Source of the DNA: Candidatus Latescibacterota bacterium | Lineage (GTDB): Bacteria; JAAXHH01 | DNA length: 64,000 nucleotides | Reading direction: 5' to 3' | NCBI GenBank assembly: GCA_022821085.1 | Contig: JAJEEG010000006.1 | Location: forward strand, 1,881,330 to 1,945,329 | Shown here: positions 25,002 through 45,900 of the stretch, in pieces | Layout of the letters: each line of letters starts with the position of its first letter | How positions within the stretch are numbered: position 1 is the stretch's first letter | Position numbers and translations under genes: made by a program | The notes under the pieces: generated by a model | What the model was told of the DNA's origin: nothing | The model's database searches: none | What the model saw: only the letters and a program-made list of their open reading frames with translations

Positions 25002-25111
25002 AGCTCGGGTATTTATAGTACATATTTGAGGGTGAAATCCTAAAACAGTTGAAGATTGCCAGATATCCAGTTTGCCAAATATTGTCTGTAAAACTTAAAC
25101 TACGATTTTTA

Positions 25112-25140
25112 TTGACACTATAATGAGTTTTGTGTATACT
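25112..25140 (+). promoter_or_regulatory. Sigma-70-like promoter of the type I restriction-modification operon
   Basis: TTGACA (25112-25117), a 17-bp spacer and TATACT (25135-25140) form a near-consensus promoter in the AT-rich gap after abiEii. A second TATAAT lies at 25119-25124. The predicted transcription start (about 25147) is within 2-3 bases of the ATG at 25149, so the first gene would have an almost leaderless message. The motif match is strong; activity is inferred. Confidence 0.65.
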
Positions 25141-25148
25141 CTGTATAT

Positions 25149-27301: not shown

Positions 27302-27397
27302 AGGCGAGTCGAGCGAACGGGCAACCTGTAAGCGTTTTTTACGAGTTCGTACTGAGGGCAACCGTCAAGTCGAGAGATATTGGAAGGAACGCGAGCA

Positions 27398-28585
27398 GTG
27401 GACAAAGTAATGATTAAGGGATGGCGAAATACAACAGTCGGCGAACTGGGGCTTGTCATTACTGGAAAGACACCACCAACTTCGACAAATGGATTCTTCG
27501 GAGGTGACATTCCATTCGTTACACCTGGTGATTTAGGAAATTCTGCGGTTGTGTTTGATGCGGAAAGGACTCTGACTCTGGCTGGATTAGAGCAAGCGAA
27601 ACCTATACCTCCGGGTGCAGTTCTCTTCACCTGTATCGGGACCATTGGTAAATCGGCGATTGCAGGGAGGCAACTTGCTACCAATCAACAGATAAACTCC
27701 GTAATCTGCGATCCTGAGAAAGTCGAGAACAAGTTCCTTTACTACCTACTGAAGTTTCATAGCGACAGGATCCAACGTCTTGCCGGTTCTCAAGCGGTCC
27801 CGATTGTCAACAAGTCCACGTTTGAGAATGTAGCCGCTATCATACCTCCGCTTGAAGAGCAAAGAAAGATTGTTGAAGTTCTACGAACTTGGGACGAGGC
27901 TATCGAAGGCGTAGCCAACCTGATCAAATTGCTTAGATCTCGGCGAGAGGCAATGAGATATGTGCTGTTTTCTGAACGTCAATATGCTGTAAAGACAGCT
28001 TCATTCGGTGACTTTCTCAAGGAAAGTCGCCTACTTGGTTCCGAAGGTAAAGTGGGTAGGAAAATCACGGTCAAACTCTATGGAAAAGGAGCTGTGCCGA
28101 AAGTTGAAACACGACCCGGTAGTCCGAGGACACGATACTATCGTCGCACCGCCGGCCAGTTAATCTATAGTAAGCTGGACTTTCTTAATGGAGCGTTTGC
28201 CATTGTACCTGAGTCGCTTAACGAATTCCAATCGAGCTTGGATTTACCAGCTTTTGATATCAGCGAACATGTAAATTCAAAATGGTTGCTCGAATACCTT
28301 ATCCGTCCTTCCTATTACTCGCGCCAACTCCATCTTGCACGTGGCCAGCGCAAGGCACGTCGAATTGCACCAGCGGATTTTCTGACATCACCGATAAAAC
28401 TTCCCGATCGAAGGGTACAAGACCATATCGCCAGTACGTTAGCCTCCACTGACGATGAAATCGCGTCACAATGTAGTTTACTCGAAATGTACAATCGTCA
28501 AAAAAAAGGCTTGATGCAAAAGTTCCTTACCGGAATCTGGCGGGTAGATACTACCGGCCCTCGACTTACCAGACCAAAGGACTAA
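27398..28585 (+). CDS. hsdS: Type I restriction-modification specificity subunit S
   Basis: A 395-residue specificity subunit with two target-recognition domains. The first begins GWRNTTVGELGLVITGKTPPTS and ends in IIPPLEEQRKIVEVLRTWDEAIE, the conserved helix repeat. The second runs to FLTSPIKLPDRRVQDHIASTL and a closing helix, LLEMYNRQKKGLMQKFLTGIWRV, typical of HsdS C-termini. It determines the bipartite DNA site. GTG 27398 is preferred because GGAAGGAAC sits 7 bases before it; ATG 27410 is an alternative. The sequence is clearly more AT-rich than hsdM, as usual for exchangeable specificity genes, and marks the left edge of the foreign cassette. Confidence 0.93.
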   Translation: MDKVMIKGWRNTTVGELGLVITGKTPPTSTNGFFGGDIPFVTPGDLGNSAVVFDAERTLTLAGLEQAKPIPPGAVLFTCIGTIGKSAIAGRQLATNQQINSVICDPEKVENKFLYYLLKFHSDRIQRLAGSQAVPIVNKSTFENVAAIIPPLEEQRKIVEVLRTWDEAIEGVANLIKLLRSRREAMRYVLFSERQYAVKTASFGDFLKESRLLGSEGKVGRKITVKLYGKGAVPKVETRPGSPRTRYYRRTAGQLIYSKLDFLNGAFAIVPESLNEFQSSLDLPAFDISEHVNSKWLLEYLIRPSYYSRQLHLARGQRKARRIAPADFLTSPIKLPDRRVQDHIASTLASTDDEIASQCSLLEMYNRQKKGLMQKFLTGIWRVDTTGPRLTRPKD

Positions 28586-28592
28586 CTTAGCG

Positions 28593-31500
28593 ATGCCACT
28601 CCCTGGTGGACCAGCTGGCAAATACGGGCCCCGGTACGAAAAATGGTGGACGGTCTCTCAGCTCATTCGAATCATCGTGGGCCAAGCAGACAGCCTCCGT
28701 ATTGAGGATCCTGACTACCCCAAAGCTGAGTTTGTACTTTCGGCAGGAAACTGTCGTGAGTTTCACCAGACAAAGCGTAGCAATCCAAATGGCAAGTGGA
28801 GTCTGAGCGGACTTCAAGGTGACAATCTGTTGCAAGCGATTTTTGAGTATCTTTCCCACGACCACAACACACAGTTCGTTTTCGTATCTGGTAGCGATGC
28901 ACCGGAATTGAGGGAATTGACGGAAAGAGCAAACCAAGCTGAGTCCTTGGAGGAGTACGAGTCAGATTTTCTAAGTTCTACGACTCACAGACAGAATCTA
29001 TCAAAACTCGAATCACTGTGGGGTAACCCGGACAAATCCCTTGTATACAATGTACTTCAGCGAATCGAAGTCCGTACCATTGATGAAAGAGGGATCGAAG
29101 AGCAAGTACGGCGGTCACTGTCGCTACTTTTCCTCAGTAACCCGAGTGAGGTTTGCGATGCGATACGAGCCTTAGTCGAGGACTCGATTCACATAGTCAT
29201 TGATCACAACTTTCTTGATTCCACCCTCAAAGAAAAAGGATTCATTTCAAGACGCCTTTCTAATCCGAAGAACGCCCCAGTGCTTGCCAACGAGGTTACC
29301 AATAACTATCTGAACGGGATAAGACGTCAGTTGATCAACAAGACACTCATACCGCGGTCCAATTTCCAGAATCTACTTACGGCACTAAAGGAAAACGAGA
29401 CTAGTACAGATTGCATTGTCACCGGAAATGCCGGAGGCGGAAAAACCGCGAGCATACTCGAACTCGTAAACTTACTCCGACAAAACGATGCACCACCTGC
29501 TGTACTTGCCTTTCGTCTGGATGGAATGGAACCTGTCCCATCGACGAAGACATTAGGGGAACGTCTCGGACTGGAAGAGTCGCCCGCGTTAGTCCTGAAA
29601 GCTGCGGCGGAAGTTCAATCCGGCGAAGCGGTGCTCATTATCGATCAACTCGATGCTGTCAGTAAAACCTCCGGACGCAGATCGGATTTCTTTGACGTGA
29701 TTGAAGCTCTTTTGGAGGAGGTGAATGCATGCCGTAACGCCGTCAAGTTCCATATTGTATTGGTCTGCAGAAAGTTCGATTGGGAGAACGACCATCGGTT
29801 TCATCAGTCTCTGGCAAAGGAACCAGTACCCATCTCTGTCTCGGATTTCTCTCAGGAGGAAGTCAGAACCATACTCCTCGACCACGGATTTAATCCCGAC
29901 TCGATCCGAAAACAAAACCTAAAGTTGCTTGGATTACCTCAGAACCTGGCGATGTTCCTCGAAATTAAAAAGGATGCAGGCATACAGTCTACCTTCACTT
30001 CTGCCATAGATCTATATGATGAGTACTGGGATGTCAAAAGACGGTCAGTCAAAAGGCGTGCCGATTCCGGTGATCACTGGATCGATGTAATCCAACAATT
30101 GTGCGATGAGATGTCAGCTTCGCAACAGCTTTCAGTCCCGAAAGAAGTACTTGACCGCTTCCCTGTCGAATACGTCAAGAGCATGACCTCAGAGGGTGTC
30201 CTGTCTTACTATGGAAGGCGTTACAGATTCAGTCACGAGTCTTTTTTCGATTACTGCTTCGCTCGTGACTACTTCCTTAAGAGTATATCTCTGACCGACT
30301 TCCTCAAGGCGTCGGAACAACATTTGTTTCGAAGAGCGCAGGTCCGGCAGATACTCGAGTATCTTCATGATGCAGACTTGGAACGCTACTGTAGCGAACT
30401 GAATGAGTTATTGAGAGATGATAAGATCCGCTATCACCTGAAAGACCTGGCCATCGCGCTGGCTGTCAGGTTTTCCGATCCAAGTGAAAGCGAATGGAAC
30501 GTACTTGATCCTTGGATCAGTTCAGAATTAGAAGCTATCGAATGCGGCCGAAAGAACGAAGAGGACATCGCCTCTACGGTATGGAACTACTTTTTCTATT
30601 CTGAGTCCTGGTTTCCGTTGGCAGACAGAATAGGTTTGATAACGAGTTGGCTCGAATCGGAGAATGATCGTCTTATCGATAAAGGCGTGGAATATGTAGA
30701 ATTCCATCAAAGTCACTCAGGCGACAGGGTGGCAGATCTTTTGGAACCATTCATCGACAAGGGGGATGAGTGGCATAAGCGACTTTATCGTGTAATGCGA
30801 GGGCGCGAACATGGAAACAGCCGGCCGTTCTTCGATCTGTTTCTGAAGTCAATCGACAATGGAGTTTTGGATAGTGCCGGCAACAGGGTTTTGGATTCAA
30901 TGGGATATAGGGCTAGAGAACAATCTTCATGGATTGCTGAAATCGTCGCTCATTGGCTAAACAGACGAATCACTCTAGTAATAGAAACCAGTGATGAATC
31001 GGATTGGCACAACTGGCTTGGTTTAATCGGGTCGGATAGTTCTGGCTCGGATGAGGTTACATCTTCCGCCTCTATTGCTCCCAAAGCATACATACGACAT
31101 GTGCTACCTGTCGTGCTGAAGATCTCCGATGCAGCCGTTCTTAGTCATAAAGTTATACCACCGATCCAGGATGCAGTATGGACAATTTTAACAAATTACG
31201 AGTACTCTCGTCTTGACGAGGCTATTCGGGAAGCTGTTGCTACGGCGGTCGAAAAAGTCACGGAGACCAATTCAAAAGAATTAGACGAAATCCTGAATGC
31301 ACTCAGGAGTCGAGAAACTCTTATAGCGAACCATTTTCTCCTTCGAGCCTACACCGCTGGTGCTGAACATCTTGCGGACGACGCGGTAACCGAGCTATGC
31401 AGGAATCCGTGGCGCTTCGATTGTGAGTATTCTGGTACAAAGTATTGGCTGGCGTATAAGTTGATAGAAGCCACTTCCCCTCATTGTTCAGATAAAAACC

Positions 31501-33140
31501 GAATAAAACTTGAACAGACAATTTTGAACTATGTTCCCGATTATGAACGTAGTCCTGAGGGATGTAATTCTAGGGGATATACTTCTTACTTCCTGCTATC
31601 CGGAATACCCGTGAGAATGCGTAGCGAAGATACGAGGCGGCGTTTCGAAGAGCTTGCAAATGAGTTCGGTCCTTTGACCATCTCCCCGCCAAAGCCGATC
31701 GGAGCTGGCTTCGCGGAGTGCCCAATTGAAGAAGCGGAGATAGAGAAGATGACCGATGAACATTGGCTCAGCGAAATTGGAAAATACGTATCTGAAAATA
31801 CTCCATATGACAACACAAAACCGTTCAGAGGCGGAGCCACACAACTTGCTCAGAGGATGGAAGCGTGTGTCAAAAAAGAACCGGAACGATTCGCGCGTCT
31901 GAGTCTAAGACTTCCTGCCGAAACGAATCCGGTTTATTTGGATCATGTGCTCAGGGGTCTTAAGGAAACAGATGTTTCTGCCGAACTGAAACTGGAAGTT
32001 TGCCGAAAAGCATATAAAGAATCCCGTGATTACTGCGATAGATCTATTGCGGATATACTGGGTTCGCTAGAAGAAAGGCTACCCGATGATGCGGTAAAGA
32101 TGCTCGACTGGCTGGCTACGGAAAGTACTCGGTTTGATGTGGGACTCTGGTTGGGCAGCCCCGATGGAAACGCTGAACAAACGGATCTGCTTACGAAAGG
32201 AGTCAACTCTACCCGAGGACGCTCCGCCATAGTGATAGGTGACCTTATCCGAAGGGACGCCATGTACGTTGAGCGATTTGCATCCACCATCGAGAAACTG
32301 GTCAGAGACGGGTCTTCAGCCGTTCGAGCATGTGCGGCTAGTATACTTGTCGATATATCGTTTCATGATAAGGAATACGCGTTGTGCCTGTTTCAAAAGG
32401 TGGTTGAACCGTGTGATAACGATGTAGACGCCGACAGTTTGCTGGCAACGCGGGACGTAGAGGGGTTTATCAACTACTGTCTGAGAGACGATTTCGAACT
32501 ACTTCGGCCCGTTATCGTTCGGATGCTGGAATCGAGCAAGTCTGATGTAAGACAGGTAGGAGCTCGACTCGCAGGACTGGCTGTTCTCTATCGTCACAAT
32601 GCAGCCGATAGCATAGTTGAAGAAGCACTTCGAGGTGACTCGTTCCAGAGGCTTGGATTGGCGGAGGTGGCCGCCAGGAACATCGGCCACAAAGAATGCA
32701 GGGACTGGTCTGTACGGTATCTGATACGGTTTTTCAATGACACCGCTCAGGAAGTCCGTCGTGAAGCGTCGAGTTGCTTCAGCAGCCTCGAGAATGAACC
32801 ACTGGAACAGTACGAAGACCTGATCAACAGATTCTGCGAAAGCGACGCGTTTGAAGAATCCTCGTGGTACCTGGTCACAGCTGTAGAGAAATCTTCACAT
32901 CGTCTTCCCCGTATGACGTATGTCGTATGTGCAAAGTTACTCGACTTGCCCGACGATGGGGGGCGCGACCGAAGTGTACGTCAATCAACCGATCTCTCCA
33001 CCGTATCAACGTTGATTCTTCGTGTATATCACCAGCATCAACAGGACCAATGGACTGTAAAATGTCTTGATTTGATAGACCTGATGTACCGCAAGAGAAT
33101 CCGTGAAATAAGATGGCACATGAAGGAATTCGAAAGATAA
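28593..33140 (+). CDS. Large STAND/NACHT-type NTPase with predicted N-terminal PD-(D/E)xK-like domain and HEAT-like C-terminus
   Basis: A 1515-residue protein of signal-sensing STAND architecture. Residues 1-110 resemble DUF4297/Cap4-type nuclease folds: YGPRYEKWW, then acidic E38 and E46 and the H-Q-T-K core at 58-61, a layout like E...Q-x-K. The NTPase has Walker A GNAGGGKTA (278-286) and Walker B VLIIDQLDAV with D351, followed by FSHESFFDYCFARDYF, a winged-helix-like STAND feature. From about residue 600 to the end lie long helical repeats, HEAT-like around 1300-1480 (VRACAASILVDISF, VRQVGARLAGLAVLY, VRREASSCFSSLE). By analogy to Avs-type proteins the repeats would sense a phage component and trigger the nuclease. 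Composition is AT-rich. It starts 8 bp after hsdS. Confidence 0.78.
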   Translation: MPLPGGPAGKYGPRYEKWWTVSQLIRIIVGQADSLRIEDPDYPKAEFVLSAGNCREFHQTKRSNPNGKWSLSGLQGDNLLQAIFEYLSHDHNTQFVFVSGSDAPELRELTERANQAESLEEYESDFLSSTTHRQNLSKLESLWGNPDKSLVYNVLQRIEVRTIDERGIEEQVRRSLSLLFLSNPSEVCDAIRALVEDSIHIVIDHNFLDSTLKEKGFISRRLSNPKNAPVLANEVTNNYLNGIRRQLINKTLIPRSNFQNLLTALKENETSTDCIVTGNAGGGKTASILELVNLLRQNDAPPAVLAFRLDGMEPVPSTKTLGERLGLEESPALVLKAAAEVQSGEAVLIIDQLDAVSKTSGRRSDFFDVIEALLEEVNACRNAVKFHIVLVCRKFDWENDHRFHQSLAKEPVPISVSDFSQEEVRTILLDHGFNPDSIRKQNLKLLGLPQNLAMFLEIKKDAGIQSTFTSAIDLYDEYWDVKRRSVKRRADSGDHWIDVIQQLCDEMSASQQLSVPKEVLDRFPVEYVKSMTSEGVLSYYGRRYRFSHESFFDYCFARDYFLKSISLTDFLKASEQHLFRRAQVRQILEYLHDADLERYCSELNELLRDDKIRYHLKDLAIALAVRFSDPSESEWNVLDPWISSELEAIECGRKNEEDIASTVWNYFFYSESWFPLADRIGLITSWLESENDRLIDKGVEYVEFHQSHSGDRVADLLEPFIDKGDEWHKRLYRVMRGREHGNSRPFFDLFLKSIDNGVLDSAGNRVLDSMGYRAREQSSWIAEIVAHWLNRRITLVIETSDESDWHNWLGLIGSDSSGSDEVTSSASIAPKAYIRHVLPVVLKISDAAVLSHKVIPPIQDAVWTILTNYEYSRLDEAIREAVATAVEKVTETNSKELDEILNALRSRETLIANHFLLRAYTAGAEHLADDAVTELCRNPWRFDCEYSGTKYWLAYKLIEATSPHCSDKNRIKLEQTILNYVPDYERSPEGCNSRGYTSYFLLSGIPVRMRSEDTRRRFEELANEFGPLTISPPKPIGAGFAECPIEEAEIEKMTDEHWLSEIGKYVSENTPYDNTKPFRGGATQLAQRMEACVKKEPERFARLSLRLPAETNPVYLDHVLRGLKETDVSAELKLEVCRKAYKESRDYCDRSIADILGSLEERLPDDAVKMLDWLATESTRFDVGLWLGSPDGNAEQTDLLTKGVNSTRGRSAIVIGDLIRRDAMYVERFASTIEKLVRDGSSAVRACAASILVDISFHDKEYALCLFQKVVEPCDNDVDADSLLATRDVEGFINYCLRDDFELLRPVIVRMLESSKSDVRQVGARLAGLAVLYRHNAADSIVEEALRGDSFQRLGLAEVAARNIGHKECRDWSVRYLIRFFNDTAQEVRREASSCFSSLENEPLEQYEDLINRFCESDAFEESSWYLVTAVEKSSHRLPRMTYVVCAKLLDLPDDGGRDRSVRQSTDLSTVSTLILRVYHQHQQDQWTVKCLDLIDLMYRKRIREIRWHMKEFER

Positions 33141-33271
33141 AGATTGAACTTGGTTGTCTGTTCAAATCAGTCGGTAAAATTCAAGTTCTTTCGTCGAATG
33201 AACAATCAATTCCTTTAAAAAACGTTAATGCCGCAATATCAAAGACGACGAGGAAATTCGGACTAGGGTAA
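33113..33271 (+). CDS. Possible small ORF (52 aa) between the STAND and reverse transcriptase genes
   Basis: ATG 33113 opens a 52-codon frame overlapping the end of the STAND gene by 28 bp and stopping at 33271. The peptide (start MAHEGIRKIKIELGCLFKSV) has an ordinary amino-acid mix with a K-N-V-N-A-A-I-S-K-T-T-R-K-F-G-L-G end. The ribosome site is weak. It may be a real small component of the cassette, the N-terminal remnant of a longer gene, or chance. The rest of the gap up to 33358 shows nothing recognisable. Confidence 0.3.
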   Translation: MAHEGIRKIKIELGCLFKSVGKIQVLSSNEQSIPLKNVNAAISKTTRKFGLG

Positions 33272-33358
33272 GACAACTAAACACACCGTAGGACCTACAA
33301 AATCGTACATTCAGACTTCACGTACCTGGTCGCGATGTTTCCATGAAAGCATGACTAC

Positions 33359-33889
33359 ATGCAACAGACTTTAAGACCAACTCTTCAGGACCTCCGCATG
33401 GAATGTGTCCTGATGCAGGCCTGGAAGAAAACATCTTCCTATCTCCGGTCTCATAGCTGGTACGCCGATACCCTTGGGATCGATATGCAATCATTGCGCG
33501 TATCCTCGTTCTTGGGTGAATTACAGGCTCGTTTGCAGAATCCAGACCAATGGGAGCCGCAGCCTTTGAGGTTCGTTCCCGCTCCGAAGAACCAGCGATG
33601 GGAGATCGACGAGAACGGAAGATGGGGACCAGAGAAGCAGAAGAAGAAAAGGTCGAAATCAAAACCTATGAAACATAAGGACCAGAAGAAAAAGGACCGC
33701 ATCCGTCCACTCGCGCACGTTGATCTGGGAGATCAAGTTGTGGCGACTGCGATTTTGCTCTGTCTGGCGGATCGAGTTGAATCCAAGCTTGGCGACCCCC
33801 GTTTGGATGTGAAAAAGGGTAATCAGCGAAAGGAGGTCCTCGCGTACGGCCACAGGCTATTCTGCGATAAAGCCGGGAATCCGGCCTGA
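33359..33889 (+). CDS. N-terminal fragment of an RT-nitrilase protein (frameshifted from the next entry)
   Basis: A 176-residue frame carrying the N-terminal part of a UG/DRT-type reverse transcriptase: AWKKTSSYLRSHSWYADTLG, PLRFVPAPKNQRW, a Lys-rich insert (KKKRSKSKPMKHKDQKKKD), then IRPLAHVDLGDQVVATAILL and VLAYGHRLFCD. It ends at TGA 33887-33889. In the -1 frame translation continues as LRHRWGSSKLYRGYFQDYKK, which joins this part smoothly to the polymerase core in the next entry. The two frames are both open only between 33871 and 33889, so the shift must lie there. No classical X-XXY-YYZ slippery heptamer is seen, so a one-base deletion (true or assembly) is more likely than programmed frameshifting. 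Confidence 0.8.
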   Translation: MQQTLRPTLQDLRMECVLMQAWKKTSSYLRSHSWYADTLGIDMQSLRVSSFLGELQARLQNPDQWEPQPLRFVPAPKNQRWEIDENGRWGPEKQKKKRSKSKPMKHKDQKKKDRIRPLAHVDLGDQVVATAILLCLADRVESKLGDPRLDVKKGNQRKEVLAYGHRLFCDKAGNPA

Positions 33890-33912
33890 GGCATCGCTGG
33901 GGAAGCTCTAAA

Positions 33913-36900
33913 TTGTATCGTGGCTATTTCCAGGACTATAAGAAGTTTCTGAAGCGACCAAGGCGCGTAAAGAATGAATTGATGTCGCTTGAAAAAAAGG
34001 ACTTGGACGTCGCCGTAGTTCAATCCGATTTATCGAAATTCTATGATCGGGTGCGTCCCTCGATGTTGCACGAAAAACTACGGGAGTTCCAGAGATCATC
34101 AGATGAGATACCTTTCTTCGATCTCGCTGAACGTGTTTTGAATTGGCGCTGGCACTTCTCAGATAGAGACAGGGCTCTACGGTATGCCGACGCGAATGAT
34201 ATCGATGATGAATTTAGGGAGGTGGCTCTTCCACAGGGACTTGTGGCCAGTGGATTCTTCGCGAATATCGCACTTGTCGACTTTGATAAGGAACTTAAGA
34301 CAAGAATCGGTAACGAATTTGGGACAGATGAAGTGATTCTTGAAGACATCTGTTACTACGTGGACGATTTTCGTCTGACGTTGAGTTTTTCAAAGGATTT
34401 GTCGATAGATGAGAAGAACATAGAGGAATTTGTAATCAGGACATTAAAAGATCTCCTTTCTTCTTGCGCCCCAGGCCTCGAACTTTCTTGCGAAAAGACC
34501 AATGCCGCGATTGAAACCAGAGATAATCGTTTGCATGTGAAACAGTCGCAAGAAGCTACGCGGATTCAGAAACGGGCTTCCGGTGTATTTGACGCAACCC
34601 TCGGTACCGAATTGATCGGTGCCATAGAAAGCTTCTTCTACAGACAGCGGCACTACGCTACTTCGGAAATAGGGAAATTCGATGAGACTCTGGACGGGGT
34701 TCCCGACATGCCGGATGAAACGGTAGCACGCTTCGCCGCCGGGAGGATGAGACGCACATTTCGTTCCTTGCGGCCGCTTTTGCCTAATGCGGAAATTCCT
34801 GAATCCATGGACGAAGATCAGGATATCACGGAATCAGTTCCAACCTTTGCACTTACGAAATCTCAATTGGATGAAAGGGGGAGAGCTTTTTCATCATTAC
34901 TCATTGGTGAGTGGATCAGGAATCCAGGGCATGTGCGCTTGCTTCGTATTGCTCTTGATTTCTATCCCAGCCACCAGTTCCTGGATAGAGTATTACAATT
35001 GTTACGAAAAAGCTGGGAATCGACAGGGACTCGGGGGTCGAGACGGGAGATCATGCTATACTGCCTTGCGGAACTCTTTCGGGCGGGAGCGACAGAAACG
35101 GGTATGGTGCCCGACATTGAATCGGAATCGTTGCCAAATGGTATATCTGTTGAAAATGAAAAATACCATGACAGCCTCGCTAAGGAGGCCCTGGCAATTG
35201 TCTCCGCTTACATTTCGAAACGCAGATCTGTTGCGCGATTCCCCTGGTATTTAATGCAGCAGGTGTTACTCTACCTCGCCATACGGAATCAGATTCCAGA
35301 GACCGTGCTCACCACGAGTATCCGAAAAGGGGGAGATTTACTGGGCGACTACTGGAGATTTCTCAAGTTCCTTCGAGGTCGCGTTCCCGACGACCTTGAG
35401 AAGCGTTCGATATTCCTGGTAGAGACTATCACAGCATTTGGAATCCCGGAGCCAGGAAAACTTGCCTCTACCAAACGGATTTCTCGTAATTTCCTGTTAA
35501 GAGTGAATTCAATTTCACCCTTAGTCGCGAAGAAGCTTTGGACAACGGCCAGCTATGGATCAGGGAAGGATGTTAAACGACTGGCCATTCGCCTTGGGCT
35601 CGAACCGTCTGGAAACAACGGTCAGTCTATAATACCACTTGATGAGGAATCTTCAAAGAAGCAGACGTTATCCGACCTCACCCCCGATGCTGTAAATCCC
35701 TTTCATGAGGAGGAGAATCTCCTGCTACTGGCGGAATACCTACTCAGTCAAGACTCGACAGTTTTCACTGAGCCAATAGTTCCTGCCGGTATTCGGTTCT
35801 CTCTGAAGCTTCCAAGACCAAAAGGCTTTGAATTCGGTAAGATCGAAGATGATTCGATTGAACATGAGTCGATTGAGGACTATACGACTCCGTTCTTCAA
35901 TTCACCCGATTGGTGTGAAAACACAGAAGATCGCCAACGAATCAATACAGGACTTCTGCTTCGGTACGCTCTCCGAGGTTCGAACGATTTTCTATCCAAT
36001 ATTTCTATAAGTCGCAACAGGAGCTATCCGAGATATACCAAGCCAGTCTCGCACTGGGAACAGCAAAGATATGCCGGCTATCAAGGACGAGATGCGTTTG
36101 GTCCAGATTGGCTGCCAATCTCGCAGTTCACGGAAAATCTACTCTTCGATCTATTGCGCTGGCCAGGGGCGGGGGCGGGACGAGACATCGTCCCGGTCCA
36201 CGATCTACTTAGTACCGTGTCATCCCAACTGGAACACATCAGGAAGAAGAGGGGCCAGTATACATCCACAACATTTCTGGAACAGTCAGCACCATTGCAA
36301 CACCGCTCTCAAGAGGATAGACGCGATCGCGCCCTCCGCATTGGGATAGTTCAATCTGTGGTTCCCAGTTTCGAGCATTACAAAAAGCACCGTAAAGATC
36401 CAAAGCTTTGTAAGGATGAGATAAGGTCCAAATGCCGGGAACATCTGTCCGCGATAATGGCAGGAGTCTTCCAACAGTTACGTGTACGCGAGTCACATAT
36501 GAGCAGCCCTAATGAAAGTGGTATCAACCTTCTTGTATTCCCTGAACTTGCCATTCATCCTCAAGACATAGATACGTATCTACTGCCCTTTGTGCAGCAG
36601 TACCGGTGTATTGTGTTGTTAGGACAAGTTTATCACCCCAGAGACCTTCATCCAGATTCTCCGATAGTAAACAGCGCTCTCTGGATAATTCCTGACAAGA
36701 GTAGTTCAGATGGACTCCAAATCAAGCGAATCGAACAAGGGAAAGCCCATATTGCGGAGACTGAACGTAGCCTTTGCCCCACACCAATAGGATTTCGGCC
36801 TGCGCAATGGCTGATTAACTACCAATGGAGCAAAGACCCTGAGGCAGAGCGCCCACTACGTCTGACAGCCTCAATCTGCTACGACGCAACCGACTTGGCG

Positions 36901-37278
36901 CTTGCCGCGGATCTCAGTACGAGAAGCGATCTCTTTATCATCTGCGCGCTGAACAAGGATGTTGGCACGTTCGACCGAATGGCTGAAGCGATTCATTACC
37001 ATATGTTCCAGGGAGTTATCTTGGTAAACAACGGGCAGTTTGGCGGAAGCAGTTTCTTCATGCCTTTTAAGAAACCCTATGAGCGAGAAGTGTTCCACCT
37101 GCACGGACAACCACAGGCTTCGATAGCATTTGCCGAAATCGATCCCTTAAAACTGATAAAGCGTCCAAGCCAAGAATTTCGCGACAAGCCACCCAAGGGT
37201 AAATGGAAAACACCGCCTGCGGGACTCTATGGTTGCGACCGCCCGGACAGTTCTGCTAACGATCTCTACGAGGGATAG
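33913..37278 (+). CDS. UG/DRT-type reverse transcriptase core fused to C-terminal nitrilase (C-N hydrolase) domain
   Basis: A 1121-residue frame, which with the preceding fragment restores a protein of about 1306 residues. Polymerase motif A is QSDLSKFYDRV (catalytic D39), motif B ALPQGLVASGFFANIAL (105-121), and motif C YVDD (149-152, bases 34357-34368). A long helical middle follows. From about residue 806 a nitrilase domain begins (RIGIVQSVVPS), with the Glu-Lys-Cys triad apparently intact: E878 in LLVFPELAIHP, K944 probable, and C989 in ASICYDATD. An RT joined to a nitrilase is the layout of antiphage DRT type 1 (UG1), or the related UG5 group. The frame is open upstream to 33871; TTG 33913 is only a formal start. 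It lies in the hsdS-hsdR gap and is AT-rich. Confidence 0.85.
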   Translation: MYRGYFQDYKKFLKRPRRVKNELMSLEKKDLDVAVVQSDLSKFYDRVRPSMLHEKLREFQRSSDEIPFFDLAERVLNWRWHFSDRDRALRYADANDIDDEFREVALPQGLVASGFFANIALVDFDKELKTRIGNEFGTDEVILEDICYYVDDFRLTLSFSKDLSIDEKNIEEFVIRTLKDLLSSCAPGLELSCEKTNAAIETRDNRLHVKQSQEATRIQKRASGVFDATLGTELIGAIESFFYRQRHYATSEIGKFDETLDGVPDMPDETVARFAAGRMRRTFRSLRPLLPNAEIPESMDEDQDITESVPTFALTKSQLDERGRAFSSLLIGEWIRNPGHVRLLRIALDFYPSHQFLDRVLQLLRKSWESTGTRGSRREIMLYCLAELFRAGATETGMVPDIESESLPNGISVENEKYHDSLAKEALAIVSAYISKRRSVARFPWYLMQQVLLYLAIRNQIPETVLTTSIRKGGDLLGDYWRFLKFLRGRVPDDLEKRSIFLVETITAFGIPEPGKLASTKRISRNFLLRVNSISPLVAKKLWTTASYGSGKDVKRLAIRLGLEPSGNNGQSIIPLDEESSKKQTLSDLTPDAVNPFHEEENLLLLAEYLLSQDSTVFTEPIVPAGIRFSLKLPRPKGFEFGKIEDDSIEHESIEDYTTPFFNSPDWCENTEDRQRINTGLLLRYALRGSNDFLSNISISRNRSYPRYTKPVSHWEQQRYAGYQGRDAFGPDWLPISQFTENLLFDLLRWPGAGAGRDIVPVHDLLSTVSSQLEHIRKKRGQYTSTTFLEQSAPLQHRSQEDRRDRALRIGIVQSVVPSFEHYKKHRKDPKLCKDEIRSKCREHLSAIMAGVFQQLRVRESHMSSPNESGINLLVFPELAIHPQDIDTYLLPFVQQYRCIVLLGQVYHPRDLHPDSPIVNSALWIIPDKSSSDGLQIKRIEQGKAHIAETERSLCPTPIGFRPAQWLINYQWSKDPEAERPLRLTASICYDATDLALAADLSTRSDLFIICALNKDVGTFDRMAEAIHYHMFQGVILVNNGQFGGSSFFMPFKKPYEREVFHLHGQPQASIAFAEIDPLKLIKRPSQEFRDKPPKGKWKTPPAGLYGCDRPDSSANDLYEG

Positions 37279-37282
37279 TGGA

Positions 37283-37483
37283 ATGGTGGTATATCTGCCA
37301 GTAGACCCCGAGCTACTCGAACAGGCGCAACGTGTCGGAGGCGAGAAGACGAAGCAGGCCACGGTCGAAAGGGCCTTGCGGGAATTCATCGCACGGCGAG
37401 AGCAGAAACGGATTCTCGATCTGTTCGGCACACTCGAATGGGACGAGGGATACGACTACAAACGTGGTCGTGAACGCCGGTGA
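37283..37483 (+). CDS. VapB-type antitoxin, orphan
   Basis: A 66-residue protein of the VapB ribbon-helix-helix antitoxin group. The first strand is VVYLPVDPELLEQAQRVGG, followed by EKTKQATVERALREFIARREQKR, the standard helix with E-R-A-L-R-E-F, and an L-F-G-T-L-E-W-D-E-G-Y-D-Y tail that normally wraps the toxin. ATG 37283 comes 2 bp after the RT stop. No PIN-domain VapC toxin follows; the next 274 bp hold no gene. GC content is back to the host level, so it may belong to the original type I locus and mark the right edge of the cassette. It could act on a VapC elsewhere. Confidence 0.75.
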   Translation: MVVYLPVDPELLEQAQRVGGEKTKQATVERALREFIARREQKRILDLFGTLEWDEGYDYKRGRERR

Positions 37484-37617
37484 AGTTGTAGGCTGGCGCC
37501 CCGATGCGGGATAGCTTCAATTGGGGGCTTCTGAACTGCTTACTGATCCGAAATGACGCGAAAAATTCTATAAACTGATCGAAATCTTGAAGCGGAGTTT
37601 CACCGATTCTACGTTGC

Positions 37618-37654
37618 ACAAAAAACAAAAGGGGCCCTGAAAACTCAGGACCCC
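37618..37654 (-). terminator. Rho-independent terminator-like hairpin reading leftward
   Basis: On the minus strand GGGGTCCTGA and TCAGGGCCCC form a 10-bp stem (one mismatch) around GTTT, followed by TTTTGTTTTTT. On the plus strand there is no U-tract. It lies in the 274-bp gap before hsdR, yet no minus-strand gene ends here, so its purpose is unclear. Confidence 0.45.
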
Positions 37655-37757
37655 AGATGTCGACCGGGAAATGCCCAATCCTTGATGAAAACATATCCTA
37701 AAACATGAACGAAGTCAAGTCTTGATTTGGTGTCGAGACTTGCCAATTTTTGACCAG

Positions 37758-40700
37758 ATGATCCCACACATCCCCATGACTTTCGACGTTTCCGAGAAGC
37801 ACCAATCCCAGATACCGGCGCTTCAGCTCCTGGTCGCGATGGGTTATAAGCCTCTCTCCCAGGCCAGGGCTCTGATGCTTCGTGGCGACCGGCGGCGCAA
37901 CGTCATCCTCGACGACGTACTGACGGATCGGCTGTTAAGGATCAATCGCTTCACCCATCGCGGCCAGGAGTATCCCTTCGACCTCGAAGACGCCCACGAG
38001 GCGGCTAGACATCTAAAGCCATCGCCGGATCGGATCAGGGGATTGCGGGGGACCAACCAGGACCTGTACGACTTGCTGGTGCTCGGGACGACGATCACCA
38101 AGACCCTGGACGGTGATTCGAAGTCCTATTCCTTCCGGTATATCGATTGGGAGAATCCGCATAACAACGCTTGGCACGTGACCGCCGAAATGCCGGTGGA
38201 ACGCACTAGCAGCACGCAAACGCGCCGTTGCGACATCGTCGCCTTCGTCAACGGCATTCCCTTCGTAGTCATAGAGTGCAAGCGCCCGACGGAAGACCTG
38301 AAGAAGGCCGCCAGCCAACTGATCAGCTATCAATCCGAAGACAATATCCCGCAGCTGTTCCATTTGGCCCAGATCCTGCTTTCCACGAACCGGCAGACAG
38401 CGCGTTATGCGACGGTCGGTACGCAGAGAAGGTTCTGGCAGACCTGGCGGGAGGAGGCTGAGGCAGTCGAGATGGGATTGCCTTTCGACCAGGTGGAATC
38501 TTCCGACGCCGAGTCGGTTCAAGTGGAGGATAACGTAGAACCCAATGAGCAGGACAACCATCTTGATGAGCTGGACGTTGAGATCGAAGAAGAGGTGTTT
38601 TATTCGACAGATCTACCACTTCGGGACTTGGTGGACCGCCCCCTCGCGGTAGCCGAATCCGAGGCTGTGTACTCCGGGGACCTTGCCTCCGCGCGAGATC
38701 ACTTCGAAACGCGGGAAGTCCAGGAAGGTAGAGCTATCACGGCGCAGGATGAGGCGCTGTACGCCCTGTGCCGGCGCGACCGCCTACTGGATCTTGTGCG
38801 GCGGTTCACCGTGTTCGATAACGGCATCAGGAAAGTTGCGCGCCACCAGCAGTATTTCGCCGTGATCCGGGCCATGGAACGGGTCAGGCAGTTCGACCCG
38901 CAGGGGGTGCGAAAGGGCGGCGTGATCTGGCATACGCCGGGAACGGGTAAGTCGCTGACCATGGTCATGCTGGCCAAGGCGCTGGCCCTGGATCGGACGA
39001 TCCCTAATCCGCGGATCCTCATCGTCACCGATCGGGTAGATCTCGACCGACAGATCAAGGACACCTTCAAGTCCTGCGAGATGGAACCGGTCCGCGCCAC
39101 GACCGGGGCGCACCTGGTCTCGCTGATCCGCGAAAAGACGCCGCTTATCACCACCATCATCAACAAGTTCGAAAGGGCGGCGCGCATCCGGGACGCGATG
39201 GATGCAGACTCAAACGTCTTCGTGCTCGTGGACGAAAGTCACCGCACCCAGACGGGTCAATACGGAGGGTACGGGCAGTTGGCGGCCCAGATGAGGCGCA
39301 TGCTCGGTAAGGCCTGCTATCTCGGTTTTACGGGTACGCCGCTCCTGCGGCGGGAGAAGAACACCCTCGCCACCTTCGGTGGACTCATACACCAGTACGC
39401 CATCGACCAGGCGGTCAGCGACGAGGCCGTCGTGTCCCTGCTCTACGAAGGCCGGATCGTCGAACAGCAGATCACGCCCGAAACCATAGATCGCTGGTTC
39501 GAAAAGCTCAGCGAGGGCCTGAGTCCACAGCAGCAAGCGGACCTGAAGCAAAAGTATTCCCGCATGGATGCGCTGGCAAAGACCAGCCAGGTGATACGCG
39601 CCAAGGCGTTCGACATTTCGGAACACTTCCGGCGGCACTGGCGGGGCAGCGGCTTCAAGGCGCAGCTCGTCGCCCCGTCCAAGGCGGCCGCCTGCCGGTT
39701 CAAGGAGGTCCTCGACGAGATCGGCCACGTGACCAGCGAAATCATCATCTCCCCGCCCGACGACCACGAGGGGACCGAAGAGACTGATGGAGCGTCCCAG
39801 GACGTCGTGCGCGCGTTCTGGCACCGCATGATGGAGCGGTACGGCTCGGAGGGCGAGTACAACCGCCAGATCATCAAAGCGTTCAAGCAGTCGGAGAAAC
39901 CGGAAATCCTTATCGTCGTCTCCAAGCTCCTCACCGGATTCGACGCGCCCAGGAACACGGTGCTCTACGTATGCAAGTCCCTGCGCGAGCACAACCTCCT
40001 GCAGGCCATCATGCGGGTGAACCGGCTTTACGAAGAAGAAGACGGGACCGGGAAAGAGGGCGCGACCAAGAAGTTCGGATTCATCATCGATTACGAGGGT
40101 TTACTGGGCGAGCTGGACGGTGCGATGACCGCGTACAGCGCACTCGAGGGGTTCGATCCATCGGACCTTACGGGCACGATAAGCCACGTCAAGGAGGAGA
40201 TCCGTAGGCTCCAGCATCTGCACGACCGCCTCTGGGACTTGTTCAGGCCGATCAGGAACAAATCTGACATGGAAGCATTCGAGCAGTTCCTGGCAGAAGA
40301 ATCCAGGCGCCAGGACTTCTACGAACGGCTGCGCGAATTTGTTCGGTGTCTGCGAGTCTCGTTGTCGTCCGACAAGATCCACGACGTCTACGAAGAAGAC
40401 AAGATCGAAGACTTTAAACGCGACGGAGCGCGATTCCTGGAACTCCGTCGCTCGGTCCGGGTCCGCTACCAGGAGTCGGTGGACATCAGTGATTACGAAC
40501 CGGGGATACGCAGGCTACTCGACGATCACGTGGCCGCGACGCCCGCCAGGACCATCGTCGAGCCCGTCAACATCAACGACCCCGATGCCCTGAAGGCCAT
40601 TGTCGAGGAAACGACCGTTACAGACGCCTCCAAGGCCGACCGCATCGCCAGCGCCACGCGCCGGACCATCACGGAGAAGATGGAGGAGGACCCGACGTTC

Positions 40701-41156
40701 TACCTCCGATTCTCGGAACTGCTGGAAGAGACGATCAGAAATTACCGGGCAATGCGAATATCAGAGCGGGAATACCTGAACAGCATAATCTATCTGGCAG
40801 GGAAGGTGTCCCGAAAGGAAGACCAGGACGTCGAGGTACCGGAACCCGTCCGGGGCAATGACGACGGCAAGGCCTTCTACGGCGTGCTCCAGGAAGTGCT
40901 GTCGAATTCGAACGGCCAGGCAATCGATCCACTGACGATCGCCCAGGCAGCCCTGGATATCCTCGAAATTATAAGGGAAAACCTCATCGTAGACGTTTGG
41001 TCCAACGAGGTCGCGCAGAACAACATGTATAACGCCATCGACGACTACGTCTTCGACGTCCTCCGCGACCAGCAAGGCATCGTCCTCTCCGACGAACAAA
41101 TGAATGACCTTGAGCGCAGGATCATGAATCTGGCAAAGGCCCGGTTTCCCGGGTGA
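37758..41156 (+). CDS. hsdR: Type I restriction endonuclease subunit R
   Basis: A 1132-residue restriction and translocation subunit. The N-terminal nuclease has the D...E-x-K core in FVNGIPFVVIECKRP, followed by the QxxxY motif in SQLISYQ. The SF2 motor has Walker A HTPGTGKSLTMVM, DESHRTQTGQYG (motif II as D-E-S-H), FTGTPLL (motif III) and LLTGFDAP...MRVNRLY (motifs V-VI). It cleaves DNA far from the HsdS site after ATP-driven translocation. I prefer ATG 37758; 37776 is possible. Base composition matches hsdM, not hsdS or the inserted genes, which supports one ancestral operon interrupted by a cassette. The large separation from hsdM (10.4 kb) suggests it needs its own promoter. Confidence 0.96.
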   Translation: MIPHIPMTFDVSEKHQSQIPALQLLVAMGYKPLSQARALMLRGDRRRNVILDDVLTDRLLRINRFTHRGQEYPFDLEDAHEAARHLKPSPDRIRGLRGTNQDLYDLLVLGTTITKTLDGDSKSYSFRYIDWENPHNNAWHVTAEMPVERTSSTQTRRCDIVAFVNGIPFVVIECKRPTEDLKKAASQLISYQSEDNIPQLFHLAQILLSTNRQTARYATVGTQRRFWQTWREEAEAVEMGLPFDQVESSDAESVQVEDNVEPNEQDNHLDELDVEIEEEVFYSTDLPLRDLVDRPLAVAESEAVYSGDLASARDHFETREVQEGRAITAQDEALYALCRRDRLLDLVRRFTVFDNGIRKVARHQQYFAVIRAMERVRQFDPQGVRKGGVIWHTPGTGKSLTMVMLAKALALDRTIPNPRILIVTDRVDLDRQIKDTFKSCEMEPVRATTGAHLVSLIREKTPLITTIINKFERAARIRDAMDADSNVFVLVDESHRTQTGQYGGYGQLAAQMRRMLGKACYLGFTGTPLLRREKNTLATFGGLIHQYAIDQAVSDEAVVSLLYEGRIVEQQITPETIDRWFEKLSEGLSPQQQADLKQKYSRMDALAKTSQVIRAKAFDISEHFRRHWRGSGFKAQLVAPSKAAACRFKEVLDEIGHVTSEIIISPPDDHEGTEETDGASQDVVRAFWHRMMERYGSEGEYNRQIIKAFKQSEKPEILIVVSKLLTGFDAPRNTVLYVCKSLREHNLLQAIMRVNRLYEEEDGTGKEGATKKFGFIIDYEGLLGELDGAMTAYSALEGFDPSDLTGTISHVKEEIRRLQHLHDRLWDLFRPIRNKSDMEAFEQFLAEESRRQDFYERLREFVRCLRVSLSSDKIHDVYEEDKIEDFKRDGARFLELRRSVRVRYQESVDISDYEPGIRRLLDDHVAATPARTIVEPVNINDPDALKAIVEETTVTDASKADRIASATRRTITEKMEEDPTFYLRFSELLEETIRNYRAMRISEREYLNSIIYLAGKVSRKEDQDVEVPEPVRGNDDGKAFYGVLQEVLSNSNGQAIDPLTIAQAALDILEIIRENLIVDVWSNEVAQNNMYNAIDDYVFDVLRDQQGIVLSDEQMNDLERRIMNLAKARFPG

Positions 41157-41232
41157 CGGGCTGACGTGCGAGTATCAGGCGCGGCACCGCGACAATAATC
41201 CCTGCACAATTGGTAAATCCTGGGGTTCCTTC

Positions 41233-42000
41233 ATGACGCCCGAATGCCACAGGATTCAATGCGGCGAACACCGGATTGAATTCACCGTCGTGCGCCGCGA
41301 CCGGAAGACGCTGGAGATCGGTGTCGAACCGGATACGTCCGTCGTCGTCGCCGCTCCACGCGACGCGTCATTACAGGACATATTCAATAGAGTCCGAAAG
41401 CGGGCTTCGTGGATACGCCGTCAACAGCGTTTCTTCTCCCAGTTCCTGCCCAGAATCCCCGAACGTCAATTCATCGCCGGAGAAACCCACCACTATCTGG
41501 GAAGGCAGTACCGGCTCAAGGTGACGACTGTCGACCGGCCGAGGGCTGCTGCCGACCGATCGAGGACGGCCGACGACCAGCCGAGCGTCAAGATGATACG
41601 GGGTTTCATCGTGGTCCGCAGTCGGGATCCCGGGAGGAGCGATCTGACTCGCAGTCTCGTCGAAAGCTGGTACCGTGTGCGTGCTCGCACCAAACTAACG
41701 GAACGGCTCGAAGCGAACTTGGTCAGGTTCCCGGACCCGAATTCATACCGGCCGCGTGGATTGATCGTCCGGAAGATGCGCAGGCGATGGGGATCCCTTT
41801 CGGCGTCTTCGCGGCTCGTGCTCAATCGCCGGTTGATCGAAGCGCCGGTCGACGGCATTGACTACGTAATCACGCATGAACTCTGTCACTTGACTGAACC
41901 CCACCATGGCAGGGACTTCTACGAACTGCTGACTACTGCTATGCCGGATTGGGAGAAGCGTAAAGAGCGATTAGAGCGAAGTGTTGGTGGGCGGATATGA
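41233..42000 (+). CDS. YgjP-like metallopeptidase domain protein (M48/DUF45)
   Basis: A 255-residue zinc-peptidase-like protein. The C-terminal half has the full active site VITHELCHLTEPHHGRDFYELL (HExxH with the downstream His), preceded by RRRWGSLSASSRLVLNRRLI, the family's W-G-S-C/L signature. The N-terminal half is the usual DUF45 beta region. Such genes are frequent directly downstream of hsdR, as here (76 bp), and are commonly treated as part of the type I locus, though their role in it is not established. No signal peptide. Confidence 0.9.
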   Translation: MTPECHRIQCGEHRIEFTVVRRDRKTLEIGVEPDTSVVVAAPRDASLQDIFNRVRKRASWIRRQQRFFSQFLPRIPERQFIAGETHHYLGRQYRLKVTTVDRPRAAADRSRTADDQPSVKMIRGFIVVRSRDPGRSDLTRSLVESWYRVRARTKLTERLEANLVRFPDPNSYRPRGLIVRKMRRRWGSLSASSRLVLNRRLIEAPVDGIDYVITHELCHLTEPHHGRDFYELLTTAMPDWEKRKERLERSVGGRI

Positions 42001-42080
42001 GGTCAGGAAGTCGAAATGTTCAAACGCGATGAATCGGGGATCGGGCCGGCCCGTCGAATCATGCGACAGGGAGACTGCTG

Positions 42081-42334
42081 GTGAGAATGCAGATTAACTG
42101 GAACGCCGTGACGGCCGTAAATGCGTTTGCCGTGGCATTACTCACGGCCAGCGGAGGTTGACCGACAGATTAAGTGAGGATATCAGGGATCTGCGCCTGG
42201 AGATGCGCGAGGGGTTCGCCGAGACGCGCGTGGAGATCGAGGCGCTGCAACAGGATGTGGCTTTCATAAAAGGCCAGACTCAGGCGGATCAGACGACGAG
42301 TGGTAATACGAAGCGTCCAGATTCTGGGAAATAG
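42081..42334 (+). pseudogene. Frameshifted small membrane-anchored coiled-coil protein
   Basis: GTG 42081 (after AGGGAG) opens INWNAVTAVNAFAVALLTASGG, a short hydrophobic segment, then stops at 42159-42161. In the -1 frame from TTG 42158 the sequence continues as LTDRLSEDIRDLRLEMREGF and VEIEALQQDVAFIKGQT up to TAG 42332-42334. Joined, they make the familiar small protein layout of one N-terminal helix plus a charged coiled coil. The break suggests a decayed gene, though the second half could start at TTG 42158 behind GGAGG. Function unknown. Confidence 0.5.
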
Positions 42335-42471
42335 CCTTTAGTAAATTCCACATCGGACTCGGGAATGCCGTAGGAGGACAGACTATCGGGCAAAATGGAC
42401 ACTCCGAAGAGGTATTCGACGTGACTCTGGGAGTCACGCGGGTGCTCATCACTCAGAATTCCTTCCAGCAT
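42289..42471 (-). CDS. Possible small ORF downstream of the coiled-coil gene
   Basis: ATG 42471 lies inside the end of the 89-residue coiled-coil gene and opens about 60 codons (MLEGILSDEH...GYFPESGRFVLPLVV) on the same strand. The overlap and ordinary composition make it a candidate second gene of a small operon, but there is no recognised family and only a weak ribosome site. It also overlaps, on the opposite strand, the tail of the decayed coiled-coil gene. Uncertain. Confidence 0.25.
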   Translation of the reverse strand: MLEGILSDEHPRDSQSHVEYLFGVSILPDSLSSYGIPESDVEFTKGYFPESGRFVLPLVV

Positions 42472-42718
42472 TTTCAATCCGTTTCTGAATGTTATTCAAG
42501 CGTTGATCTGCTTCCTTCAGCTGCCTGTCTATATCCGCCATTCGTTGAGACTCTGCGACCATTTCTCTTTTTATGGCGTCAGCCTCTGATTCCAGTGACT
42601 TGATTCTCTCATTCATATCAACTCTCTTCCTCAAGATGCGATTCTTGGCCTTTAGTAATTCACGCCTATTTTCTAACAGTTCTTCGTAATACTCACGGAG
42701 TTCAATAAGGTAATCCAT
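42449..42718 (-). CDS. Small coiled-coil protein, unrecognised
   Basis: An 89-residue, highly charged protein predicted to be almost one continuous helix: IELREYYEELLENRRELLKA, then SLESEADAIKREM and DIDRQLKEADQRLNNIQKRI with heptad spacing of Leu/Ile. AAAGGAACCCC directly before ATG 42718 is a good ribosome site, which supports a real gene. It lies 279 bp downstream of the two-ATPase operon on the same strand, with TATACT-like sequence in between, so it may have its own promoter. No family recognised; a small adaptor or antitoxin-like partner is possible but unproven. Confidence 0.55.
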   Translation of the reverse strand: MDYLIELREYYEELLENRRELLKAKNRILRKRVDMNERIKSLESEADAIKREMVAESQRMADIDRQLKEADQRLNNIQKRIENAGRNSE

Positions 42719-42997
42719 GGGGTTCCTTTCATAATATCTAAGAATGAATAGTATACATATCTATGCCCTCCCTTATGAGCCCCTTCTTGGTGTTAGAGTC
42801 GGCAGATTACTAAAAATGACCTCCTGTAAGTCTATTGGTAGTCCCTGTAGGCATTACATTAGGCACTACATCATGTATATTAACAACATGTTGGCATTCT
42901 GACAACAACCCAGTGTCAACAATGTTACCTTCGACGTAGATTCTAATCAGTTGAAAGTGCGGAAAGCCATTCCGGTGCTTTGGTACCGGAACTATCC

Positions 42998-45900
42998 CTA
43001 GCCATTATCGATAGCACGCAAGATATCATCGGCAACTTCATTCACCTCAGCCGTTGCACGTACGTCCAACCCTGTTCGTTTTTGCAGTGCTACTACGAGA
43101 GGGCTAAGAACCTCAGCCTTCCTATCGTCGCTTAACAGGATATCAAGGACATCACTCTCTGAAGCTCCTGTCGTGATAATGAAAACTACACTCCCGATCA
43201 TCTCCTGCAAAATAGCTTGGTCATCAAGATCGGCGGAAGCATACACGGAACGGAACAAATCCATAGCGGCGGTGTGGTCCTTCTGAATCAGTAAAACCCT
43301 AATCCTGATCCAATGCAGTTGGCGTCTTGTATCGTTGGCCTGTTCTGCTTCTAAATTACCCACCATTTCTTGAATCGTATCGCAAGTTCGCTGTGCTTCT
43401 GACAGCCGACCGATTTTAATCTGGTTGTCGGCTTTGCTGACCCATGCGCCGGCGACCGCTCCTTGGAACCATGGGTTATTGCTTGCACTTGCACGGTCAA
43501 TTAATTCGTCATAAGTCGCTATACTTTCCTCGTATTTTCCTAGTTGACTTTGGACAAGAGCTTTGTTGTCCATCGCCATCACCACGACCTGCTGCAACCC
43601 TTCTGAATTGCTGTCAACGAAACATTCTACAACCAGATCATAAGTTTCGATGGACCCTTCATTGTCACCGAGGTTTCCCAGCGCGACACCTTTATTGATC
43701 AAAGTCCTGGCAATCCATAACTGAACCATGGAATCGGTACTATCTCCAAAGCGGTCAATCACTTCATCGTACGTTGCGATCTCTGCTTCGGAACGCCCAA
43801 GTTGCCCTTGCATCATTCCCTTGTTTAGAAACGACTTTGCGACAATTGCTTGGATTTCGGTCGATTCACTGGTTCCAAATCGCTCTATTACCTGATCGTA
43901 ACTCGAGATAGCCTCCGATAGGTTACCGAGATTCCATTGAGCAACTCCCCGATTTATCATCGCCGTGGCGACTAGAATGTGACGGTTCAATCTGTGGTCA
44001 TCGTCGACCCAGGCAATTAACTCATCGTAGGATTTAACCGAGGACTCAACATCGCCTAGTTCGAACTGCGTCTCTGCTTTGTTAAATAACGCCTCGGCTA
44101 CTAATCCCTTTAATGGCAATTCTTCAAAAGCACCGAAGCGTTTTAAGATCTCATCGTAGGCCCCGATAGCTGCCAATGAATTACCTAGCTCAACTTGTAC
44201 AGTCGCTTTAAGCATTAGCGCGTCAGCGACTTTTTTCTGAATCTGAGGCTTGTCAGAGTCTGCAAACCGTTCACTAATAGACTCTAAGGTAGCATTCGCG
44301 TCGCTGAGTTGGCCAAGTTCTTTCTGTACAAAACCTTTATTTACCATTGACTCGGCCAGTAACGACTCGAACTGAGGTATTCTGCTTGCATGAAATCGCT
44401 CTTCGACCGATGTGAAATCCTTATACGCCTCAGATAGCCTACCCATCCCGCAAAGAACCATACCCTTAAGAAGCTGAGCTTTAGCAACCATAAACTGGAT
44501 TCTCGGTGACTCTTGATCTGAAAACCGTTCAACGACCGAATCGAAGATCTCGATGGCCGCTTCAGGTTCTCTGCTTTGGACTTTTTCATCTGCTTTACTA
44601 ATCAAGTCTTCGGCGACCTTCACTACTTGACTAAGTTCAGCTTCTTTCTGGTCAGAACATATAAACTCGCGGTTGACTGTTACCGGTTCCAAACCTGAAT
44701 CAGAAATCTGACTGAACAACTGTTCAATCTGTGGTACATCCGCCCTCGCTCGCTTGAACCCTTCACGAATCGATTGGAACCGCGTCGCCTCCGCTCTGAA
44801 CATTTCCGACATCGCAGTCAGTTCGTCCTTACTGTAGAACACCGCCATAAACCGGATTAAATTGTGCACGACTGCCGCCTCATCCCGTTCACGTCTCATT
44901 TTATAGTAGATGCTGTACAGCCGTTCCGCCGCGGCATACTCCCGTTTCCTTGGACTTCCGTCGTAGGTAACGGCTCCACGATCAACTAATCTGCCAAGAA
45001 GGCTGGACACGCTTCGGACATCCATTCGCGCCCTTGCGGCGATCTCGCCGGTGGTCGAAGGTTGCCAGAGGTCGATTACCGCGAGATAGACACGACGCTC
45101 CGTTGGTGCCAAGGCCTCCAAATGGCCGCGGAAATACTCGGTATGGTCGTCTACGAGCGTCACCAGTTCTTCTATCAACTGGCGTAACGACCGGTGCTGC
45201 GCGAATTCCGCGACGATAACCAGTAGGCGGGGACTGCCGCCAGTGAGTATCTGCAGTGGTCTTATGCGGCGATCAGTAACTTCATCGCCGCTGACCACCT
45301 GCCACAACCGCCCGCATGCCTCGGTGTCCAATGGTTCGAGATTGATGGTTCGGAACAATTCGAAGAAGGGTTCTTGTGCTTCGTCCAGACCTTTGAAACG
45401 GCTTGTAGCGGTACCGATCAGTATGACCTGGGGCTCGGTCTGCAACGTCCTCCGCAACTGCCATCCGAAATCGTCATCCACGTCGGCGCACAGCGTCTGC
45501 AGGTTTTCGACCATGAGCACGAGCTTCCGGCCCAACCGATCGGAAGCGTCCAAGACCACAGCCCTGGCCCGCTCCGCCAGAGAATCCCCCCGCCATCGGG
45601 TTGTCAGATCGGTATGGGTATCCTGAAGTTCCCGTCCGAAATCCGGATCGGAACCCGCGACCTCCTTCGACAGATAGAAGAGCGTCTCAAGCCAGAAGTC
45701 GGCGATATCGAGTATCTCGTGGCTTTCTTCCATGAATCGCACAGGCACCAGACACCGAGAAAGTTTATGATCAGTGCGCAGCTCCGACGCTACGCGGGCC
45801 AGCAGCATTGTCTTCCCCATACCCCTTCGCGCGACCAGCAGGATGTGTTGGCACGAAGGAGTTTCAACGTTGTCCCGCAGCACGTTCAGTACGATTTCCA

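Follow-up and report, generated by a model that had tools for sequence, protein, structure and literature searches.

In DRT1, a defence-associated reverse transcriptase (RT) of which a structure has been solved (PDB 9YFD), DNA synthesis is self-primed, the protein is kept dormant in filaments, and the nitrilase kills the cell upon infection (PMC13275509). For defence by the solved protein, S402, D324/D325, C1116, K1219 and A1223 matter, the last two being essential lid residues, and an RT-dead mutant is monomeric, harmless and non-protective; the phage trigger and the nitrilase substrate are unsolved (PMC13275509). A suicidal effector of another kind is known from a type I restriction locus: the anticodon nuclease PrrC is silenced by the EcoprrI complex, which is encoded in the same operon, and is released when T4 blocks EcoprrI (PMC2610378, PMC3874165).

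In this study we analysed a stretch of 64,000 nucleotides of Candidatus Latescibacterota DNA (the window), which carries a gene of a known anti-phage kind, a DRT1 with the RT joined to a nitrilase. The gene shares with 9YFD the order of RT, helical repeat and nitrilase, the YVDD motif, the priming serine, the Glu/Lys/Cys triad, the lysine and the alanine of the C-terminal lid and a similar total length. However, its identity to the 9YFD-like branch is about 26%, its frame is broken, a Lys-rich insert precedes the RPLAH/DQVV box, and it lies between hsdS and hsdR instead of standing alone or with drt1b. The UG5-nitrilase RT (DRT5-type) likewise consists of an RT plus a nitrilase, but the match of the window gene to it is far weaker (103 vs 863 bits). 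With PrrC of the EcoprrI (prr) operon and with restriction-linked ORFs such as RloC (PMC2610378, PMC3874165) the window gene has in common that a suicidal effector gene is embedded in an hsd operon, whereas the PrrC protein and its chemistry are unrelated to DRT1. The broken frame itself is ordinary, since loss is a frequent fate of defence genes. More can be gained from the setting than from the break: the recurrent hsdS-hsdR placement on divergent backbones leads to a concrete, inexpensive hypothesis on how DRT1 is restrained and how it is set free.

One DRT1 gene in two reading frames

The window gene is distributed over two frames of the plus strand (Table 1). ORF1 corresponded to positions 5-155 of the Drt1a profile PDLC03745 (195 bits, 3e-58) and ORF2 to positions 155-1176 (863 bits, 7e-260), so that the full profile was covered; as both parts meet at profile position 155, they are two pieces of one DRT1 protein. 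When compared with PDB 9YFD, ORF1 matched residues 11-160 (2.6e-18) and ORF2 residues 165-1224 (9.6e-86). The ORF2 frame is bounded by a TAA at 33868-33870, runs to the stop codon at 37276-37278 and has its first start-type codon in the TTG at 33913. In 500 shuffles of the length and composition of ORF2, the longest open run had a mean of 108 and a maximum of 225 codons, and the observed run of 1135 codons is therefore far beyond chance.

Table 1. Features of the window discussed in the text.
Feature	Position	Strand	Remarks
Island	23103..48058	.	Absent at the matching site in congeners
AbiEi/AbiEii toxin-antitoxin pair	23390-25001		Left end of island
Half-size (one-domain) hsdS-like gene	25149-25787		Upstream of hsdM, extra to full hsdS
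hsdM, type I methyltransferase	25496..27301	+	HsdM_N, N6_Mtase; GC 0.59
hsdS, specificity subunit	27380..28585	+	Methylase_S; GC 0.47
Large NTPase, 1515 aa, HEAT-like repeats	28593..33140	+	Candidate defence protein; GC 0.48
DRT1 N-terminal part (ORF1)	33359..33889	+	ATG start, 176 aa; RT fingers region
ORF1 boxes AWKKT, RPLAH..DQVV, YGHRLFCD	within 33359..33889	+	Invariant residues in alignment
DRT1 remainder (ORF2 frame)	33871..37278	+	1135 codons; RT palm, alpha-helical repeat region, nitrilase, C-terminal lid
Break zone	33871..33889	+	Sense overlap 33871-33886, then ORF1 stop TGA 33887-33889
RT catalytic YVDD	34357..34368	+	Invariant in A1 and A2
Conserved serine S237 (P0002), in KRASGVFD	34579..34581	+	Invariant in A2; matches DNA-priming S402
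Nitrilase SICYDATD with catalytic Cys (C1116 in 9YFD)	36871..36894	+	Alignment
C-terminal lid KTPPAG (K1219, A1223 in 9YFD)	37207..37224	+	Alignment
VapB antitoxin-like ORF	37286..37483	+	Pfam VapB_antitoxin
hsdR, type I restriction subunit	37722..41156	+	HSDR_N, SWI2_SNF2; GC 0.59
YgjP-type metallopeptidase	41233-42000		After hsdR

The break follows the RT fingers region and precedes motif A of DRT1. Frame translation confirmed the extents of the two ORFs and their different plus-strand frames as given in the first-pass annotation, together with its narrow shift point, sense codons being shared by both frames only in the first part of the break zone. A slippery heptamer had not been noticed there, and our scan of 33840-33894 for X-XXY-YYZ-like sequences also revealed none. 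The loop at the break differs in length among the relatives, and thus both the loss of one base and the gain of two would fit.

By its sequence, the gene can firmly be assigned to DRT1 (UG1, a class 3 defence-associated reverse transcriptase) by descent. It had originally been described as UG1/UG5-like; the similarity to UG RTs is present and extends over the full Drt1a profile, and the UG1/DRT1 part of that call stands, whereas UG5 membership was rejected on the bit scores given above. DRT1 is characteristically encoded by a single open reading frame, and the presence of two frames in the window counts against a working DRT1 but not against descent from DRT1.

The alignments A1, A2 and A3 contained 12 full-length relatives, with the 9YFD-like P0012 included in A2. 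Compared with these relatives, the window has kept AWKK, the RPLAH/DQ boxes, YVDD, the priming-site serine, the nitrilase E/K/C and the K..PAG lid. The nitrilase triad E892, K958 and C1003 (P0002 numbering, A1/A2) and the lid residues K1113 and A1117 (P0002; K1219 and A1223 of 9YFD) are invariant. Thus, the motifs reported at first (SDLSKFYD, LPQGL, YVDD and the nitrilase Glu, Lys and Cys) were all recovered and, with the active-site, priming and lid residues in place, the gene is indeed intact apart from the break. The Lys-rich insert before the RPLAH/DQVV box was found as well; its length and its proportion of Lys are lower in the congener, and in the other relatives it is largely absent. 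The quality of the structure model of ORF2 was intermediate (pLDDT 67, pTM 0.48), sufficient for the nitrilase fold only. The C-terminal part of the model matched cysteine amidases in the PDB, with a predicted nitrilase/amidase fold (E 5.7e-06), and the model also gave a weak match to a retron RT.

Cause of the frame break

We compared the reading frame in 16 relatives (L002-L004, L006, L011, L013-L015, L028, L029/L118, L031-L033, G019, G478 and the Sphingopyxis copy L012). In 12 of the 16 the gene is a single undamaged frame that begins with a usable start, the intact single ORFs being those of G010, which belongs to the same genus, and of L002, L003, L004, L011, L013-L015, L028 and L031-L033. 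The DRT1 of G010 is a single ORF of 1276 codons with 60-67% identity to the window gene. The L118 gene is open throughout and located at the contig start, whereas the frame is broken at profile positions ~668-688 in G019 and at ~490 in G478. The two-ORF split of the window, named beforehand as the pattern that would point to a two-gene system, was thus absent from the homologues examined, and a conserved two-gene architecture was rejected, as the relatives have single ORFs and the breaks lie at unrelated places. By locus, DRT1 genes with frameshifts at places other than that of the window lie in L022 (7793-11465) and L024 (G019; 10373-14049).

With moderate confidence, we attribute the break to a small recent indel that inactivated the DRT1 gene, in which case a functional DRT1 is probably not produced. 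Evidence for the break comes from a single assembly of one genome, and the preservation of all functional residues besides the break would be expected after a sequence error no less than after recent decay. A sequencing or assembly error, with an intact DRT1 as the true gene, is therefore a serious, though less probable, alternative. The remaining codons are intact across 3.9 kb, the genome is a draft (7 contigs, 96% complete), and private frame breaks occur in every congener examined and in this genome too; however, no run of identical bases inside the frame overlap is longer than three, and a related DRT1 is really truncated, namely the Sphingopyxis plasmid copy, which stops at residue 800 and has an IS256 element nearby. 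Because this plasmid is finished, its truncation is no simple read slip and demonstrates that the DRT1 family does decay.

The background frequency of frame breaks was assessed in stretches of 400-464 kb of G000, G007 and G003, 180 kb of G005 and 100 kb of G011, so that 464 kb of this genome were set against stretches of four congeners. The pairwise break rates of 2-11% were, in our judgement, due largely to the way in which simple ORF calling sets gene boundaries, and counts were restricted to breaks backed by at least two relatives. There were 3 such well-backed gene breaks in 464 kb of this genome, a low number that speaks against an error, and the numbers were similar in three congeners. 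The genome section compared is not unusually indel-ridden, an outcome that does not decide for or against an error at the DRT1 break.

The gene was probably brought in as cargo of the type I restriction operon, as part of a block of hsdS, the NTPase and DRT1 that lies between hsdM and hsdR. Judging from 9YFD and the conserved residues, the intact ancestor would have primed DNA synthesis on its own serine and, like the solved relative, would have formed tetramers and dormant filaments, from which phage infection would have released the nitrilase to kill the cell. In the broken copy the RT fingers would be unjoined to the palm, and neither synthesis, nor a tetramer, nor defence would be expected; these predictions are drawn from the phenotype of the RT-dead mutant (PMC13275509), which the broken copy should resemble.

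Functional readings of the split appear improbable even when taken jointly. Gene fission, in which ORF2 would restart at TTG 33913 and the two chains would pair into a working split enzyme, is in our estimate very unlikely. All the invariant residues are kept in both parts and GGGGAAG is located 7 bases before this TTG, but the SD-like sequence is expected anyway, since it is the coding sequence for the invariant WG within the conserved HRWG box; moreover, a restart at the TTG would drop this box, and the same split occurs in no relative. Programmed -1 ribosomal frameshifting that joins the frames and controls the DRT1 dose is hardly credible: the direction and the short overlap are formally compatible with it and a self-killing effector such as DRT1 could profit from dose control, but the slippery heptamer is absent, the 12 relatives with a single intact frame include a congener and the break site is not conserved, and the earlier suggestion of real regulation is therefore not supported.

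The defence island and the restriction operon

The first-pass annotation had missed that the gene is located in a type I restriction operon, and that the surrounding island is absent from congeners. The island flanks are less than 80 bases apart in G010 (C28 3422/3500) and G002 (C42 11783/11860) and close together in G003 and G007. Since the flanking genes lie this close in G010 and G002, the site of the 25-kb defence island is a hot spot or a clean insertion site. The island carries, in this order, AbiEi/AbiEii, the half-size hsdS, hsdM, hsdS, the NTPase, DRT1, the VapB ORF, hsdR, the YgjP-type metallopeptidase and, beyond it on the opposite strand, two further NTPase genes. The GC content of hsdS, the NTPase and DRT1 is 0.47-0.49 vs 0.59 in hsdM and hsdR, and third-position GC differs more strongly. 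Given this contrast in composition, the hsdS-NTPase-DRT1 segment seems to have been inserted as a unit between hsdM and hsdR. The VapB ORF is probably a remnant, as no vapC followed it in a six-frame reading of 37271-37760, upstream of hsdR. The 1515-aa NTPase is weakly similar to PDC-M54A and Avs4, and at its N-terminus there is a QTKR box, possibly a nuclease motif.

A DRT1 clade associated with type I restriction loci

In the tree of DRT1 proteins, the window, G010, L002 (Syntrophaceae), L003 (Smithella), L004 (Nitrospirales) and L024 (G019) formed one clade with full support, and in five of these six members DRT1 is located in a type I restriction locus. The gene is embedded in the hsd operon in the window, L002, L003 and L004, in the order hsdM-hsdS-DRT1-...-hsdR in the latter three, whereas in the window the NTPase separates DRT1 from hsdS, and it adjoins hsdR in L024 (DRT1-hsdR), where the contig ends upstream. 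The DRT1 of the sixth member, G010, is found near an SNF2/HKD helicase and a type IIG restriction enzyme. An overlap of 4 bases between the hsdS stop codon and the start of DRT1 was seen in L002-L004. Outside the clade, a restriction link was seen in one of the 10 loci with visible context (viral contig L032); these counts (6 clade members, 10 outside loci) are small, and restriction genes are common in defence islands.

The HsdR proteins fall into three groups (window; L002/L003; L004/L024) that are 28-31% identical to each other, whereas DRT1 is 52-60% identical across the same groups; within groups, HsdR is more conserved than DRT1 (83 vs 72% and 75 vs 69%). The far higher divergence of HsdR between groups points to repeated joining to different backbones. 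Thus, to judge from these identities, DRT1 was probably recruited to distinct restriction backbones on more than one occasion, always in a position downstream of hsdS.

This association suggests that the DRT1 clade may work together with the restriction enzyme. More speculatively, and in our opinion with a rather low probability, the clade could represent a built-in second line of defence, which would be translated with hsdS, kept dormant by or alongside HsdMSR and freed when a phage blocks restriction, on the model of PrrC in the prr operon. No description of DRT1 inside type I restriction operons was found in the literature searched, to which key subscription papers did not belong, and priority is uncertain.

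Two further observations concern the neighbouring genes. A YgjP-type metallopeptidase follows hsdR in three DRT1-bearing restriction loci (L027 929-1621, L002 12991-13674 and the window), and AbiE genes are also present within the L003/L027 (Smithella) restriction locus.

DRT1 copies in other surroundings

When the window protein alone was used as the query, no match was obtained in viral contigs; alignment queries detected three distant DRT1 copies there, and the phage records gave no DRT1 match. In L118 (G978; 25-15358) the DRT1 gene has a type III (Cmr) CRISPR locus with Cas6 as its neighbour. In Photobacterium toruni (L014), DRT1 adjoins a type I-F CRISPR-transposon region (TniQ, Csy2, Csy3, Cas6f) and is possibly its cargo.
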